From assembly GCA_020851035.1 (NCBI GenBank), contig JADZDM010000006.1, positions 1-64,000 on the forward strand: a stretch of 64,000 nucleotides of DNA, given 5' to 3'. Below, in pieces: positions 8,064-13,805 of the stretch; within the stretch, counting starts at the first letter, position 1; each line of letters opens with the position of its first letter. A model generated the notes under the pieces. That model was not told where the DNA came from and searched no databases. It was given only the letters and a program-made list of their open reading frames with translations. This DNA comes from Gemmatimonadaceae bacterium (GTDB lineage: Bacteria > Gemmatimonadota > Gemmatimonadetes > Gemmatimonadales > Gemmatimonadaceae). The position numbers and the translations under genes were made by a program.

Positions 8064-8072
8064 TCCGGGGGT

Positions 8073-8088
8073 GCGCGGTGCACCGCGC
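8073..8088. terminator. Palindrome between convergent genes
   Basis: A perfect 16-base palindrome (GCGCGGTGCACCGCGC) lies in the 36-base gap between the zinc-ribbon stop and the stop of the convergent KAS III gene. It could serve as a bidirectional terminator. It has no T-run. Confidence 0.4.
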
Positions 8089-8099
8089 GTGGCGCGACG

Positions 8100-9110
8100 T
8101 CAGTACGTGATGGCGCAGCCGCCGAGTGACAGGCCGGCGGCAAGGCCGAAGAGGAGCACCCGATCCCCCCGCACGATCCGGCCGGCGGCAATGGACTCGG
8201 CGAACGCCAGCGGAATCGATGCGGCGATGCAGTTGCCGCGTGTGGCGAGGTTGGTGATCACCTGCTCCTCGCGGAAGCCGAGCCGCTTCCATCCCAGCTC
8301 GATGCCATGGCGGCTGGCCTGGTGCGGCACCACTGCGGCGATGTCGGAGCGTGTCCAGCCGGCGCCGTCGCAGACACCGTCGATGAACGGCAGCAGCAGC
8401 GGCGCCGCCTTGCGGAAGAGGGACGGGCCGCGCATCGCGAAGAGGTTGTCACCGCGGGTAGTGGCGGGATCGTTGGGGTGATGCAGCGTGCCGCCGCCGC
8501 GGATCTGGCTCAGCTCCGCGCCACTGTGCCAGGTGCGGAGGTGCACACCGTGCAGCGCGCTGCCAGTGCCGGACGCCGGGGACACCACCACGGCCGCCGC
8601 CGCATCGCCGAACAGCACCGCGCTTTCCGGCTCATCGGGGTTCAGGCTGCGGCCAGCGTTCTCGCTGCTGAACACGAGCACATGTCGATGCGCCCCGCCG
8701 CAGACGAGGCGGGCTGCGACATCGAGTGCGGCGAGGAAGCTGAGGCAGGTGGCGTTCACGTCGAAGCAGGCCGTCGCACCCTCCGGCGCGCCCAGTTCGC
8801 GCTGGACGAACACCGCCGTGCAGGGGATCGCCTGCTGCGGCGTGCTCGATGCGCCGATGATCGCGGTCAGGTCGCGGGCGTCGAGGCCGGCCATCACCAG
8901 CGCATCACGTGCCGCGGCCGCCGCCATCATGGCAGCGCTCTCGCCGGTGCAGCGCCGCCGCTCGCGCACCCCGGTGCGATCGAAGATCCAGCCCGGCTCG
9001 AGTCCGAGCTGCGACTCGAGCTCCGCATTCGTGACGATGCGCGACGGCAGGTAGCAGCCGATGCCGGTGATGCGCACCGGCAGTGCGGTGGTGGTCGGCG
9101 CGGACGTCAC
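8100..9110 (-). CDS. 3-oxoacyl-ACP synthase III-like (KAS III/OleA superfamily) condensing enzyme
   Basis: A thiolase-fold condensing enzyme joining two acyl units. From GTG at 9110 it has 336 residues with the full triad: Cys122 in DVNATCLSF, His263 in VPHQAS and Asn293 in RGNCIAASIP. The N-terminal motif WIFDRTGVRERRR is typical. The GTG overlaps the stop of the adenylating enzyme by four bases; an in-frame start at 9221 would run back into that gene and is unlikely. Given its partners (reductase, adenylating enzyme, hydrolase) it likely makes the core of a small lipid-like product instead of starting bulk fatty acid synthesis. Confidence 0.85.
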   Translation of the reverse strand: MTSAPTTTALPVRITGIGCYLPSRIVTNAELESQLGLEPGWIFDRTGVRERRRCTGESAAMMAAAAARDALVMAGLDARDLTAIIGASSTPQQAIPCTAVFVQRELGAPEGATACFDVNATCLSFLAALDVAARLVCGGAHRHVLVFSSENAGRSLNPDEPESAVLFGDAAAAVVVSPASGTGSALHGVHLRTWHSGAELSQIRGGGTLHHPNDPATTRGDNLFAMRGPSLFRKAAPLLLPFIDGVCDGAGWTRSDIAAVVPHQASRHGIELGWKRLGFREEQVITNLATRGNCIAASIPLAFAESIAAGRIVRGDRVLLFGLAAGLSLGGCAITY

Positions 9111-10441
9111 GCCGCCACCCCGGGCGTCGCCGCACGCCAGGTGCAGGTGACACGTCGACGCTTGGCGCCCGCTGCCGGCGGCTGCACTCCGTGCACCACC
9201 GTCACGGCGCCGGCATGACACCCGTATCCCCGGAGCACCGCGGTCACTGATGCCTCGACCGCGCGTGCGACCGGGGCGAGCGGGGTGCCGGCGCGCACCT
9301 CGACCTCCACCCGCAGCGCCCCCGGTGCGTCCTGCACGGCGCGATACTCCGTGATCCGGTCGTCGGCGAGCAGCACCATGCGCCGGATGGCATCCGGGAA
9401 CACCACGCGCAACGTCTCGTCACGCTGCGGGAACCAGCAGAGGTCATCCTGCCGCCCCTCGATCGCGGCGATCCGCTGCCACGCAGACCCGCAGGCGCAC
9501 CGCTCGGCGGAGAGGTGCAGGACATCGCCAAGCCGGTAGCGGACGATCGGCTGCGTGCGGCGCCAGAGATCGGTCAGGATCGGCGCCACCCGTTCCGGCT
9601 CCGTCGGGGCGAGCGGTTCACACTGCACCACCATCACGTCCTCCTGCACATGAAGCACGTCATGCCGGCAGCTCACGGCCACCAGCCCCTCGGTGCACTG
9701 GTACACTTCGCCGACGGGGGCCTGGAACGCGGCGGCGATCGACGCGCGATCCTGCGGCTCGATCACCTCGGCCACCGAGACGAGGCGCGCGGGTGTCGCG
9801 CGCAACGCGTTCCGCCGCCGCGCATCGGCGAGCAGGCCGAGCAGCGACGGCGGTCCCACGATGAGCTGCGGGCGGAACTCGTTCAGCGCGGCGACCACAC
9901 CGTCCAGCGGCTGCATCAGGTCGAAGAACCGGAACTGCACCACACTCGACGTGCGCTCGTAGAGCCGGCTGTTCGCGCGCAGGAAGAAGGCCACGCGATG
10001 GCCGGGACGCAGGTCCGGGATCGCACGGGCGAGGATGGTTCCGGCCCACCGCGTCTGCTCGGCCGGGCTGACGACGAACAGGCCGCGGTGCCCCGACGTG
10101 CCGCTGGACAGGCCCACCGTGCAGCCACGCACGGTGGCGGAATAGTCACCGCGTGCCTCGGCATCGAGTGCCACGCGCATCGCCTCGTCGCGCGGGATGC
10201 CGGTGGTCGTGAAGCCGTCGAACGACTCCATCATCAGGCGCTTGTCCACCAGTGGGAACTCACGCCACTGTGACGCGGGCCGCGTGCCCCAGTGTGCGGC
10301 GTGGAACGGGCTGTTGGCGCGGACGTGTGTGACCAGCGCGGCGGCGCGCGCATCCTGCCAGGCGCGCAGCCGGTCGCCGTGCAGCGTCGCGGCGCGCCAT
10401 CGGGCGCCGAGATACGCCCCGATCACGTCGAGGCGCGTCAC
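9107..10441 (-). CDS. PaaK/F390-synthetase-like adenylate-forming enzyme
   Basis: Adenylates a carboxylate with ATP, the first half of CoA ligase chemistry. The ATP loop SSGTSGHRG is at about residues 112-120 and the YRLGD motif follows in the C-terminal half (IVRYRLGDVL), next to CACG and a late R-x-D pattern (IEGRQDD). It resembles the group often named F390 synthetase-related rather than long-chain acyl-CoA synthetases. GTG at 10441 gives 444 residues and overlaps the hydrolase stop by four bases. It could activate the free acid or 3-hydroxy acid made by its neighbours. Confidence 0.8.
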   Translation of the reverse strand: MTRLDVIGAYLGARWRAATLHGDRLRAWQDARAAALVTHVRANSPFHAAHWGTRPASQWREFPLVDKRLMMESFDGFTTTGIPRDEAMRVALDAEARGDYSATVRGCTVGLSSGTSGHRGLFVVSPAEQTRWAGTILARAIPDLRPGHRVAFFLRANSRLYERTSSVVQFRFFDLMQPLDGVVAALNEFRPQLIVGPPSLLGLLADARRRNALRATPARLVSVAEVIEPQDRASIAAAFQAPVGEVYQCTEGLVAVSCRHDVLHVQEDVMVVQCEPLAPTEPERVAPILTDLWRRTQPIVRYRLGDVLHLSAERCACGSAWQRIAAIEGRQDDLCWFPQRDETLRVVFPDAIRRMVLLADDRITEYRAVQDAPGALRVEVEVRAGTPLAPVARAVEASVTAVLRGYGCHAGAVTVVHGVQPPAAGAKRRRVTCTWRAATPGVAA

Positions 10442-11259
10442 GAGCCGGCGGCCCAGCGCAGGGTGTCGGGACAATGGGTCGGCAGGATGGTGCACGCGGG
10501 ACGGGCCGCCGCAAAGCGGCGCAGCGCATCGAGTGTCGCGACCAGTTCCGTCAAGTCGTCCTGCATCAGGCGCGTGATCGGGTGTGGTGGTCGCAGCTCG
10601 CGATAGGCACGCGTGGACCAGGCACCATCAGCGCAGAGCAGCACGTCGCCGGTGTCGGTGCGGAGCATGGCGCCAAGCTGGCCGCGTGCGTGCCCCGGCA
10701 GTGGCACAAGGCGAACGCTGCCGTCGCCGAGGAGGTCGTGGGTGGCGCCGAGCGCCGGCAGTGCCTCGCCGGCGAAGGCGTCGATCACGGTGGCGCGGCG
10801 GTCGAAGTCGGCGGGAAAGAGCTGCTGGACGATGCCACGACGCACCGCGTCGACACCACGCGCCCGCCGCTGCAGCGCCAGCGCGGCACCGCTGACCACG
10901 AACCGAGCGGCGGCGAAGTCGAGGAGGCCGGCAACATGGTCGGCATGCAGGTGCGACACGATCACGGTCCGCACCTCGTGCGCGGCGACGCCTGCCCCGG
11001 CCAGCTGCGCCACCAGCGGCATGCCGATGGTGGTGGGTGTGGCCAGTGCATAGATGCGGGCGGGCCAGGTGCGGAAGGCATCCAGCAGGCGTGGCGCGTA
11101 CCCCGTGTCGAACAACAGCGGACCGTGGCCCGGATGCTCGATGAGGAAGGCCGGCGCGTGACAGCGCGCCTCGTGCCACCCCGTCCCGCGCGCGATCAGG
11201 CCGGCGCGCGCAACGCAGTAGCCCGTGTCGAAGGCACGAACCCGCACCGTGGTGCTCAT
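10438..11259 (-). CDS. Metallo-beta-lactamase fold hydrolase (AHL-lactonase-like)
   Basis: 273 residues with the metal motif HLHADH (His103, His105, Asp107, His108), LPGHARGQ and the late THCPD. The FDTGY motif near the N-terminus and overall pattern resemble the lactonase-like branch that opens lactones or hydrolyses thioesters. It lies second in a four-gene operon, seven bases after the reductase gene and overlapping the adenylating enzyme by four bases. A substrate made by the same operon (acyl thioester or lactone) is a reasonable guess only. Confidence 0.8.
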   Translation of the reverse strand: MSTTVRVRAFDTGYCVARAGLIARGTGWHEARCHAPAFLIEHPGHGPLLFDTGYAPRLLDAFRTWPARIYALATPTTIGMPLVAQLAGAGVAAHEVRTVIVSHLHADHVAGLLDFAAARFVVSGAALALQRRARGVDAVRRGIVQQLFPADFDRRATVIDAFAGEALPALGATHDLLGDGSVRLVPLPGHARGQLGAMLRTDTGDVLLCADGAWSTRAYRELRPPHPITRLMQDDLTELVATLDALRRFAAARPACTILPTHCPDTLRWAAGS

Positions 11260-11266
11260 CGCCCGA

Positions 11267-12262
11267 TCATATGGCCAGCCACCGGGTGCGCAGCGCGTCG
11301 ATGGTGCGCGCGACGCCGTCGGTGGAACTCACGCGTGGCATGTACCCGAGCAGCGCCCGCGCGCGACCGATGTCGCAGGTCTGGGTGCGTGCCAGGATGA
11401 GGGCGGAGTAGCGGGTGAGGAGCGGCTCACGGCGCGTGACCGCCGCGACGACCTCCATCGCGGCCGCAGCGGCCAGCGCGGTGCGCACGGAGAGGATGCG
11501 CGACGGGTACGGCAGGCCGGCGCCGGTCAGCAGTTCGCGGATCAGGGACCAGAGCAGCACGTGCTCACCACCGGTGATGAGGAAGGTCTCGCCGATGCCC
11601 TGCCGGGTGTGCAGCGCGCACTCCACGGCCTGCACGACATCGTCCACGTGCGTCACGTCGACGCGATTGCGACCGTCACCCACCTGCGGCAGGCGCCCCG
11701 CGCTGGCGGCGCGCAGGAGCCGCGGCACCAGCGAGCGATCCCCTTCCCCGTAGATCGCCTTCGGGCGCAGGATGATGCACTCGAGGTCACCCGGCGTCGC
11801 CCGCACGCGCAGCTCGGCCTGCTGCTTGGTCTCGGCGTAGCGGCTGCTGAAGTGGCGCGGATACGGCGCCGAGTCGCTGAGGTCGTGCTGGTCCCGTCCA
11901 TCGAAGAGCACGGCGGGGGACGAGATGTGGACCAGGCGACGGACGCCGGCGGCACGGGCGGCGGCGATGACATGCTCGGTGCCGATGACGTTGGTCGCAT
12001 GGAACTCGGCTCGCGGTCCCCAGGGGGCGGAGAGCGCCGCCGCGTGCACGATGGCGTCGCACCCGGCGGCGGCGGCGGTCAGGGTGGGCAGGTCACGCAG
12101 ATCGCCCAGGCACGGCGTGATGCCGGGGGCCGAGGGCATCCGGCTCCGCTGCCGGCCGTGCGCACGCACGGCGATGCCCTGCGCGGCCAGGGTCCGGCAG
12201 GTGTGGCTGCCGAGGAAGCCGGAGGCGCCGGTGACGAGGACCGTTCGGAGTGTTGGGCTCAC
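11267..12262 (-). CDS. NAD(P)-dependent extended short-chain dehydrogenase, OleD/3-beta-HSD-like
   Basis: 331 residues with the Rossmann motif VTGASGFLGSH, the DLRD acidic motif, the active-site SSPAV serine and YAETK (Tyr/Lys). The middle region (LRPKAIYGEGDRSLVPRLL, GDGRNRVDVTHVDD) is the pattern of the 3-beta-hydroxysteroid dehydrogenase group that includes OleD, the 2-alkyl-3-ketoacid reductase of head-to-head hydrocarbon synthesis. It leads the operon reductase, hydrolase, adenylating enzyme, KAS III. Ordinary nucleotide-sugar epimerase is less likely, as no sugar genes are nearby. Confidence 0.82.
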   Translation of the reverse strand: MSPTLRTVLVTGASGFLGSHTCRTLAAQGIAVRAHGRQRSRMPSAPGITPCLGDLRDLPTLTAAAAGCDAIVHAAALSAPWGPRAEFHATNVIGTEHVIAAARAAGVRRLVHISSPAVLFDGRDQHDLSDSAPYPRHFSSRYAETKQQAELRVRATPGDLECIILRPKAIYGEGDRSLVPRLLRAASAGRLPQVGDGRNRVDVTHVDDVVQAVECALHTRQGIGETFLITGGEHVLLWSLIRELLTGAGLPYPSRILSVRTALAAAAAMEVVAAVTRREPLLTRYSALILARTQTCDIGRARALLGYMPRVSSTDGVARTIDALRTRWLAI

Positions 12263-12320
12263 GAGCCGATGATACCCGGCTTCGCCCCTGGCGGACCCAT
12301 GCGACGGCGACGATCGGTGC

Positions 12321-13805
12321 TCAGGCGATGGTCCGGCTCAGGCGCTGGAGGGTGTGCGAGGCGACGCGGGGACCATCCACGTCACCATCCGCGGCATCGC
12401 GGAGCAGGCGGGCGGCGAACTCCATCTCGAAGATGGCGAGCAGCGCGTGCAATGCCCCGCCGCCGGAGCCGTAGCCCTCGAGGTATGCCTTGCGGGCCTC
12501 GCGTTCCCAGAGCCAGGCGATCTCGAGCGCCTTGTCGTCGCCGCCGGCCAGCCTCGCGGCCTCCGCGGCCGATTCGGCGATCGAGACGAGGACGCGCGCG
12601 ACATCGCGCCAGGGGGACTGCGGGGCGAGGCGTTCCTCGTCGGGGAGGCCGGGATCGCCGTCGAATTCGACGACGGTGAGGTGGCGGGGCGGCGTGATGA
12701 GGACGGCGTCGAGCGTGAGGGATCCGTGGATGCGCTGGATGATGCCCGGGGCACTCTCGGCCGCGGCAGCGAACTGCTGCAGCCGGGCCGGCAGCAGCGG
12801 GAGGGCTGCCTGGAGCAGCCGGTCCTTGCTGTCGACGGCGCCGTCGGCGCAGAGGGTGGTGGCCTGATCGAGGGCGGTCCAGGTGCGCGCGACCCAGGCA
12901 TCGACGTCGGCCGCGCCGGCGGGTTCGGCGCCGACGAGCACGCCTTCGGCGAAGGGTCGACCGAGTCCGGCGTGGAGCTCGCGGGTCGCGACACCGACGG
13001 CGCGGACGTCGTCGAGGGCAGACGCCTGGAGTGACGGGTCACCGTCGAGGGCACGCCGGAGCCGGCCGACGACGACGGATCGGACGGTTGCGGTTCCGTC
13101 GGCGAGCGTTTCCAACGCGGCACTGGCGCTACGCTGTCCTGACGGCGACCTCAAGATGGCGCTTCCGAGTAGTGCCGGAGCCACCTGTGCCACCGGCACG
13201 CGTTCCAGATGGCGCAGCAGGTCCAGCTCCGCCTGTCCGCCCCGGGTCAGCCGTCTGTAGAGGATGGCCACTCCTGCCGGCTCGAACAGCACCACGTCAT
13301 GTCGCCGGCCGGCGAGCTGGCGGGAGGCCTGCGTGACCGAGCGGCTGACTGCAGAGCGTTCCGGCGTGGCCACCCACTCCCAGCCGTCGGCGCGCAGCAC
13401 AGCCCCTGCCGAGAGCGCTTCGCGAAGCCAGGTGCGGAGGTCAGGATCCGCCCATGCCGACGCCAGCGTCCAGAGGACGGAGCCGGCGGCATCGCGCTCC
13501 TCGTGCAGCACGCGAGCCCCCTCCGGCGCCGGGCCAGGCCAGCGGCGCAACGCTGCCTGCGCCAGGGTGCCGTCGCCGCCCGTGAAGGAGACCGGCGCCT
13601 CGAACACGCAGAGTGCCGCATGCCCTGCACCACCCGGGAGCGCAAACGCGGCCTGCAGCGTGCGATGGAGTGGCGTGCCGTCGCTGCCCAGCGCCACGCG
13701 ATCGGCGAACCAGGCCGTCCACGCCTCGGGCGGCACCGACGCGAGCGCCGTCAGGAACGTGGGGTCCAGCGACTGGCCGATGCCTCCAGCGGCGGTCATG
13801 CGCAC
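12321..13805 (-). CDS. Maltokinase/trehalose-synthase C-domain homologue, probably catalytically dead
   Basis: The last 150 residues match the aminoglycoside-phosphotransferase-like fold of maltokinase (IIQRIHGSLTLDAVL, VVEFDGDPGLPDEERLAPQS, PWRDVARVLVSI). In active enzymes the loop reads HGD-x-H-x-GQ and the metal motif DF(E/D)G. Here the catalytic Asp is Ser362, the following His is Thr, the metal motif starts with Glu380, and the ATP lysine of the ILK-x-FRR strand is Tyr (ILYRRL, about 181-186). It is 494 residues long with an N-terminal domain like other maltokinases. A sensor or scaffold role is inference. No trehalose or GlgE genes are near. It lies 58 bases upstream of the reductase gene on the same strand. 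Confidence 0.65.
   Translation of the reverse strand: MRMTAAGGIGQSLDPTFLTALASVPPEAWTAWFADRVALGSDGTPLHRTLQAAFALPGGAGHAALCVFEAPVSFTGGDGTLAQAALRRWPGPAPEGARVLHEERDAAGSVLWTLASAWADPDLRTWLREALSAGAVLRADGWEWVATPERSAVSRSVTQASRQLAGRRHDVVLFEPAGVAILYRRLTRGGQAELDLLRHLERVPVAQVAPALLGSAILRSPSGQRSASAALETLADGTATVRSVVVGRLRRALDGDPSLQASALDDVRAVGVATRELHAGLGRPFAEGVLVGAEPAGAADVDAWVARTWTALDQATTLCADGAVDSKDRLLQAALPLLPARLQQFAAAAESAPGIIQRIHGSLTLDAVLITPPRHLTVVEFDGDPGLPDEERLAPQSPWRDVARVLVSIAESAAEAARLAGGDDKALEIAWLWEREARKAYLEGYGSGGGALHALLAIFEMEFAARLLRDAADGDVDGPRVASHTLQRLSRTIA

Follow-up and report, generated by a model that had tools for sequence, protein, structure and literature searches.

Here, we found that four adjacent genes of a Gemmatimonadaceae bacterium, encoding an SDR reductase, an MBL-fold hydrolase, a PaaK-type adenylate-forming enzyme and a KAS III enzyme, form a cassette that is best explained as a conserved, horizontally mobile unit, because 59 of the 66 informative loci contain all four genes, which occur in two gene orders and in many phyla and are gained or lost as a block. 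We regard it as an even call that this unit builds acyl chains in analogy to the Ole pathway without being a member of it, and that it yields a fatty acid that is beta-hydroxylated and possibly chain-joined. The initial annotation had described the operon as Ole-like: the plan of enzyme classes is indeed shared, but as a claim of family membership the description does not hold, since the KAS III, the SDR, the ligase and the hydrolase all lie outside the Ole families.

In the window, i.e. the whole stretch of 64,000 nucleotides that was analysed, the four genes lie on the minus strand with intact open frames, at coordinates that we confirmed. The first gene of the operon encodes an extended, OleD/3-beta-HSD-like SDR reductase (11267..12262, 331 aa, GTG start); it is followed by genes for an MBL-fold hydrolase of the predicted AHL-lactonase fold group (10438..11259, 273 aa), a PaaK-type adenylate-forming enzyme of TIGR02304 (9107..10441, 444 aa) and a KAS III enzyme of the MxnB/CorB-related clade (8100..9110, 336 aa). 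GTGA overlaps had been said to join all of them. This is true of the MBL/ligase and ligase/KAS III junctions, where the GTG start of the downstream gene lies within a GTGA that overlaps the stop of the gene before it, but not of the SDR/MBL junction, where TGA and ATG are separated by 7 bases and the genes do not overlap. Pfam assigns the SDR to Epimerase/3Beta_HSD, the MBL protein to Lactamase_B and the KAS III to ACP_syn_III. With its frames intact, its Pfam and TIGR02304 assignments in place and its genes found together at other loci, the four-gene operon is real. Its GC and GC3 are like those of the flanking genes, and a search for an acyl-carrier-protein match within the window found none, as noted initially.

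A maltokinase/TreS-C-terminus-like gene lies 58 bases upstream of the operon (12321-13805, minus strand) and is conserved in the genus whether the operon is present or absent. It was weighed as a possible fifth gene of the operon but is not counted as one, since it persists in a genome that lacks the operon.

Is the four-gene arrangement peculiar to this genome? We scanned with the ligase alignment, which gave 80 loci with organism names, and searched all frames with profiles for the SDR, MBL and KAS III proteins built from six operons. At the 66 loci counted as informative (at least 4.8 kb of flank on each side of the ligase), KAS III and MBL genes were each found at 64 and an SDR gene at 62. 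The full cassette occurs in seven phyla, namely Bacillota, Chloroflexota, Gemmatimonadota, Armatimonadota, Bdellovibrionota, Pseudomonadota and Fusobacteriota. The KAS III gene comes first in Bacillota, Bdellovibrionota, Pseudomonadota and some Chloroflexota, and last in Gemmatimonadota, Armatimonadota, most Chloroflexota and Fusobacterium; at two cyanobacterial loci the profile search found no KAS III near the ligase. The ligase exceeded its cut-off in only 2 of 395 sampled Gemmatimonadota genomes, and the block is therefore sporadic in this phylum. A genome of the same genus (G281) has an empty site, in which the flanking genes of the cassette adjoin: those for a 490-aa protein and a small zinc-ribbon protein are separated from the maltokinase-like gene by about 110 bases. 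The four genes thus came in, or were cleanly lost, as one block; measured against this empty site, the block extends approximately from 8064 to 12320, between the zinc-ribbon gene (plus strand) and the maltokinase-like gene (minus strand). With 59 complete loci and the block absent from the same-genus site, the arrangement is not a product of chance. In another relative of the genus (G393, locus L006) the KAS III is identical to that of a Gemmatimonadaceae bin (L041), which places the genome of the window in Gemmatimonadota.

Carriers also include Paenibacillus polymyxa and Escherichia coli. The cassette is present in 672 of 5,426 complete E. coli genomes (~12%, one in eight), among them ATCC 25922 and an ST131 strain; a sequence search found no ligase in one E. 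coli control genome. The E. coli copy is located in the narI-purU interval, with genes for PAP2, a fatty-acid hydroxylase and a desaturase after the four core genes, so that ATCC 25922 has a seven-gene operon there (L174:5001-11882). The Pseudomonas megaplasmids pMPPla107, pBASL58 and FeN3W (L038, L040, L158) carry the operon complete, partial or scattered. Three further records are listed as plasmids and look chromosomal (L035, CP054248; L037, NZ_CP141085; L157, NZ_CP084075): in the two E. coli records the operon neighbours narGHJI, and the record from Fusobacterium spans 2.1 Mb.

The best PDB matches of the KAS III were MxnB (4v2p, 242.6 bits, 41% identity) and CorB (4yuc, 226.4 bits, 38% identity), ahead of FabH (176 bits) and OleA (~67 bits); PqsD reached only 86 bits. 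The Cys-His-Asn triad is intact in the window protein and complete in an alignment of 77 members (Asn in 76 of 77, one row being gapped). The position of OleA Glu117, the catalytic residue that in OleA reaches across the dimer, is Glu in all three OleA controls; in the family it is Ile in 61 members, including that of the window, and Leu in the other 16. It is Val in MxnB and CorB, and the Glu is required by PpyS (PMC4578411). Against the OleA model PRK09258, the window protein scored 110 bits with a cut-off of 285. In a maximum-likelihood tree, the family together with MxnB/CorB, FabH and OleA formed three separate groups, each with support of 100/99. The AU test rejected a grouping of the family with OleA (p = 0.0005) and a grouping with FabH that leaves out MxnB/CorB (p = 0.001), while it did not discriminate between MxnB/CorB lying inside and lying beside the family (p = 0.076). 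From its sequence, the KAS III is thus placed in an MxnB/CorB-related clade, apart from both OleA and FabH. We reject its assignment as an OleA on the AU test and on the missing Glu117 in 77 of 77 members, and its assignment as a housekeeping FabH on its separate clade and the rejected FabH grouping. A clustering with housekeeping FabH, which the initial annotation had named as an argument against an Ole-like pathway, was not cleanly recovered, the FabH grouping without MxnB/CorB being rejected (p = 0.001).

How would such an enzyme form its carbon-carbon bond? One possible, if somewhat doubtful, answer is a FabH-type extension, in which the KAS III would condense an acyl starter with malonyl-ACP and the SDR would reduce the product, with no joining of chains; we hold the later steps of this route to be possible to a similarly limited degree, with the MBL protein as a thioesterase and the ligase re-activating the 3-hydroxy acid for an amide or ester. 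The conserved triad and the absent OleA Glu are consistent with it, as are the common ATP-grasp partner (see below) and the NCBIfam assignment of the family to 'beta-ketoacyl-ACP synthase III' (PRK07204), whose cut-off is exceeded by a Paenibacillus member. However, the family falls with MxnB/CorB instead of FabH, and the genome already has a FabH-type protein of its own, at C16, ~2 kb from an ACP. We treat malonyl extension as the main rival to a chain-joined beta-hydroxy product, which we favour because the KAS III shares 41% identity with MxnB and lies with MxnB/CorB in one 100/99 group, and because MxnB itself links two acyl chains bound to carrier proteins as beta-keto thioesters (PMC5724707). 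Against our favoured reading, MxnB/CorB are on a long branch (1.06) and an identity of 41% leaves the reaction unfixed; the family could use malonyl-ACP as FabH does. In addition, MxnB needs beta-keto chains from PKS lines, whereas the window is without an ACP.

For the SDR reductase, the best NCBIfam model was that of OleD (NF042422), with 245.7 bits against a cut-off of 580. Control OleDs likewise stayed below this cut-off (442-458 bits), and it is therefore the tree that carries weight in separating the SDR from OleD. Here, the window SDR and the other operon SDRs form their own clade beside and outside the OleD clade, so that the reductase is no member of the OleD family. Tyr142 and Lys146 are invariant in six relatives. 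A sugar epimerase is not favoured either, as OleD-type models outscore HpnA and dTDP-glucose dehydratase.

The ligase had been described as PaaK-like, and this was borne out: it scored 357.6 bits against the NCBIfam model TIGR02304, 'F390 synthetase-related' (curated cut-off 251.9), and its AlphaFold2 model (pLDDT 92) is predicted to be closest to PaaK-type ligases, with PaaK1 (2y27) as the best Foldseek match. No Pfam match, PF00501 included, was found. Lys427 and Arg430, the SSGTSG loop positions and Cys315 and Cys317 are invariant or nearly so. In the open-licence papers searched, we found no function for the TIGR02304 family.

The lactonase fold of the hydrolase was likewise upheld. Its AlphaFold2 model (pLDDT 96), which like that of the ligase was built from alignments leaving out plasmid-record sequences, matched AHL lactonases and 4-pyridoxolactonase with Z of 27-30 (VIA), compared with Z of at most 18.6 for metallo-beta-lactamases and glyoxalase-type hydrolases. 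The residues H103, H105, D107, H108, H190, D211 and H262, which comprise the HxHxDH motif and further metal ligands, are invariant. As judged from the model, the protein would belong to the AHL-lactonase fold group, a placement that fits a lactonase and a thioesterase alike; the AHL lactonase equivalog cut-offs were not reached. PqsE is not among the best 50 matches by Z listed for the model, which weakly disfavours a PqsE-like thioesterase fold.

These two enzymes also bear on a genuine Ole-type pathway leading to a beta-lactone or an olefin, in which the PaaK-type ligase would stand in for OleC and the MBL protein for OleB. The four reaction classes are identical, the best SDR model is OleD, and a lactonase fold would suit a lactone intermediate; yet we consider this route improbable, given a KAS III that is not OleA, a ligase lacking a PF00501 match, a different hydrolase fold, and genuine OleABCD clusters in the same phylum that look unlike the cassette.

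At other loci, the cassette has companions that suggest that the product is a lipid, or resembles one, and that its head group varies. An ATP-grasp protein was found near it at 62 loci, a GNAT/FemAB-like protein (weak match) at 43, and a KDSR-like SDR (top named match 3-ketodihydrosphingosine reductase, below its cut-off) at 35. Seven loci, from Chloroflexota, Bacillota, Cyanobacteriota and Fusobacterium, have a family-21 glycosyltransferase (GT21), and two Rhodobacterales (Ketogulonicigenium, Paracoccus) have a sulfotransferase and a TetR gene beside the cassette. In Fusobacterium vincentii (L157:3246-10189), the four genes are preceded by a short-chain SDR, a GT21 and a 215-aa protein without a Pfam match. 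The ATP-grasp and GNAT-like companions may stand for different end products in each lineage. At about 40 Bacillota loci, a conserved protein of ~391 aa with weak GNAT/FemAB-like similarity is encoded directly 3' of the ligase (L068:11184-12398 and relatives).

We speculated whether the product could instead be a small diffusible signal or a pyrone or lactone, with the KAS III, like MxnB, forming a pyrone-like lactone that the MBL protein would open or turn over. The kinship of the KAS III to pyrone synthases and the AHL-lactonase fold group of the MBL protein are consistent with this, and photopyrone-type pyrones are signals (PMC4578411). It is nevertheless quite unlikely, as no receptor-type gene family recurs widely beside the cassette in the neighbour survey, the companions are mostly of lipid type, and a reductase has no obvious role on a pyrone.

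For the favoured chain-joined product, we infer substrates, step order and product as follows. The Cys of the KAS III would be acylated, and the enzyme would couple this chain to another thioester through a C-C bond, most likely joining it to a second acyl chain and otherwise adding malonyl; the product would be 3-oxoacyl. The OleD-like SDR would reduce the 3-oxo to a 3-hydroxy group, a step that we propose because the best model of the SDR is OleD, a 3-oxo acid reductase. The lactonase-fold MBL protein would then free the chain by cutting a lactone or a thioester, and the PaaK-type enzyme would activate the released acid as an adenylate, either so that it can be transferred to an acceptor or, possibly, so that a beta-lactone can close. 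The final compound would most likely be a hydroxylated, perhaps alpha-branched, fatty-acid-based lipid that lineage-specific companions decorate. We propose a lipid because the companions are of lipid or conjugation type (GT21, KDSR-like SDR, ATP-grasp, sulfotransferase and PAP2/hydroxylase/desaturase); against this, such companion genes are absent from the window. The route to a 3-hydroxy acid, ester or beta-lactone proposed initially is still the most reasonable reading, even though its basis in the Ole family has fallen away.

Searching open-licence papers by ligase-family names or neighbouring-gene combinations, we found no publication on the four-gene system. A cassette that spans distant phyla and includes ~12% of complete E. 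coli genomes, P. polymyxa and Fusobacterium represents unmapped bacterial lipid or natural-product chemistry, and its E. coli copy makes it testable by simple knockouts. If chain joining is true, the KAS III would define a new class of head-to-head ketosynthases without the residue proposed for OleA and needed by PpyS. More tentatively, and rather against expectation, the cassette might encode an undescribed lipid pathway, in which an MxnB-type KAS III without the OleA glutamate joins two fatty acyl chains and the other three enzymes reduce the product, release it in the manner of a lactonase and activate it in the manner of PaaK, to give mycolate-like alpha-alkyl-beta-hydroxy lipids in many phyla, common E. 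coli lineages included; such a pathway would be one more evolved way of joining two such chains, beside OleA, PpyS and the mycolate Pks13.

How does the cassette compare with known systems? OleABCD, the head-to-head pathway that makes long-chain olefins via a cis-beta-lactone, as in Xanthomonas and in the genuine clusters of two Gemmatimonadota genomes (G116, L145; G118, L146), shares with it a short cluster of a ketosynthase III, an OleD-type reductase, an adenylating enzyme and a hydrolase. The two differ at each gene and in gene order: the KAS III of the cassette is not an OleA and is without Glu117, its SDR lies outside the OleD clade, its ligase is PaaK-type without a PF00501 match whereas OleC is a PF00501 enzyme, and its hydrolase is a lactonase-fold MBL protein (Lactamase_B) whereas OleB is an alpha/beta-hydrolase. 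Indeed, the control OleA of the G116 and G118 clusters scored 481 bits (cut-off 285) with Xanthomonas OleA structures as best match, the control OleC matched PF00501 with 196.5 bits, and the control hydrolase is Abhydrolase_1. The cassette thus fails all four protein-level features tested for membership of the Ole pathway. A third kind of Ole-like cluster in the same family of Gemmatimonadota (G144, L147:1386-6978; G158, L148) combines a KAS III carrying the OleA-type Glu with a P450, a PF00501 enzyme and an OleD-like SDR. PqsABCDE-type clusters combine a ligase, a KAS III and the MBL thioesterase PqsE, a mix of enzyme classes comparable to that of the cassette, in which the reductase of the cassette has no counterpart. 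The 'F390 synthetase-related protein' family TIGR02304, of which the cassette ligase is a member, is so far a name only in the literature searched. The closest characterised relatives of the KAS III are MxnB and CorB, the alpha-pyrone ketosynthases of myxopyronin and corallopyronin, which share its supported group, its triad and a hydrophobic residue at the OleA Glu position; they are stand-alone enzymes in PKS clusters, whereas the KAS III of the cassette, in a window without an ACP, is encoded beside a reductase, a hydrolase and a ligase.
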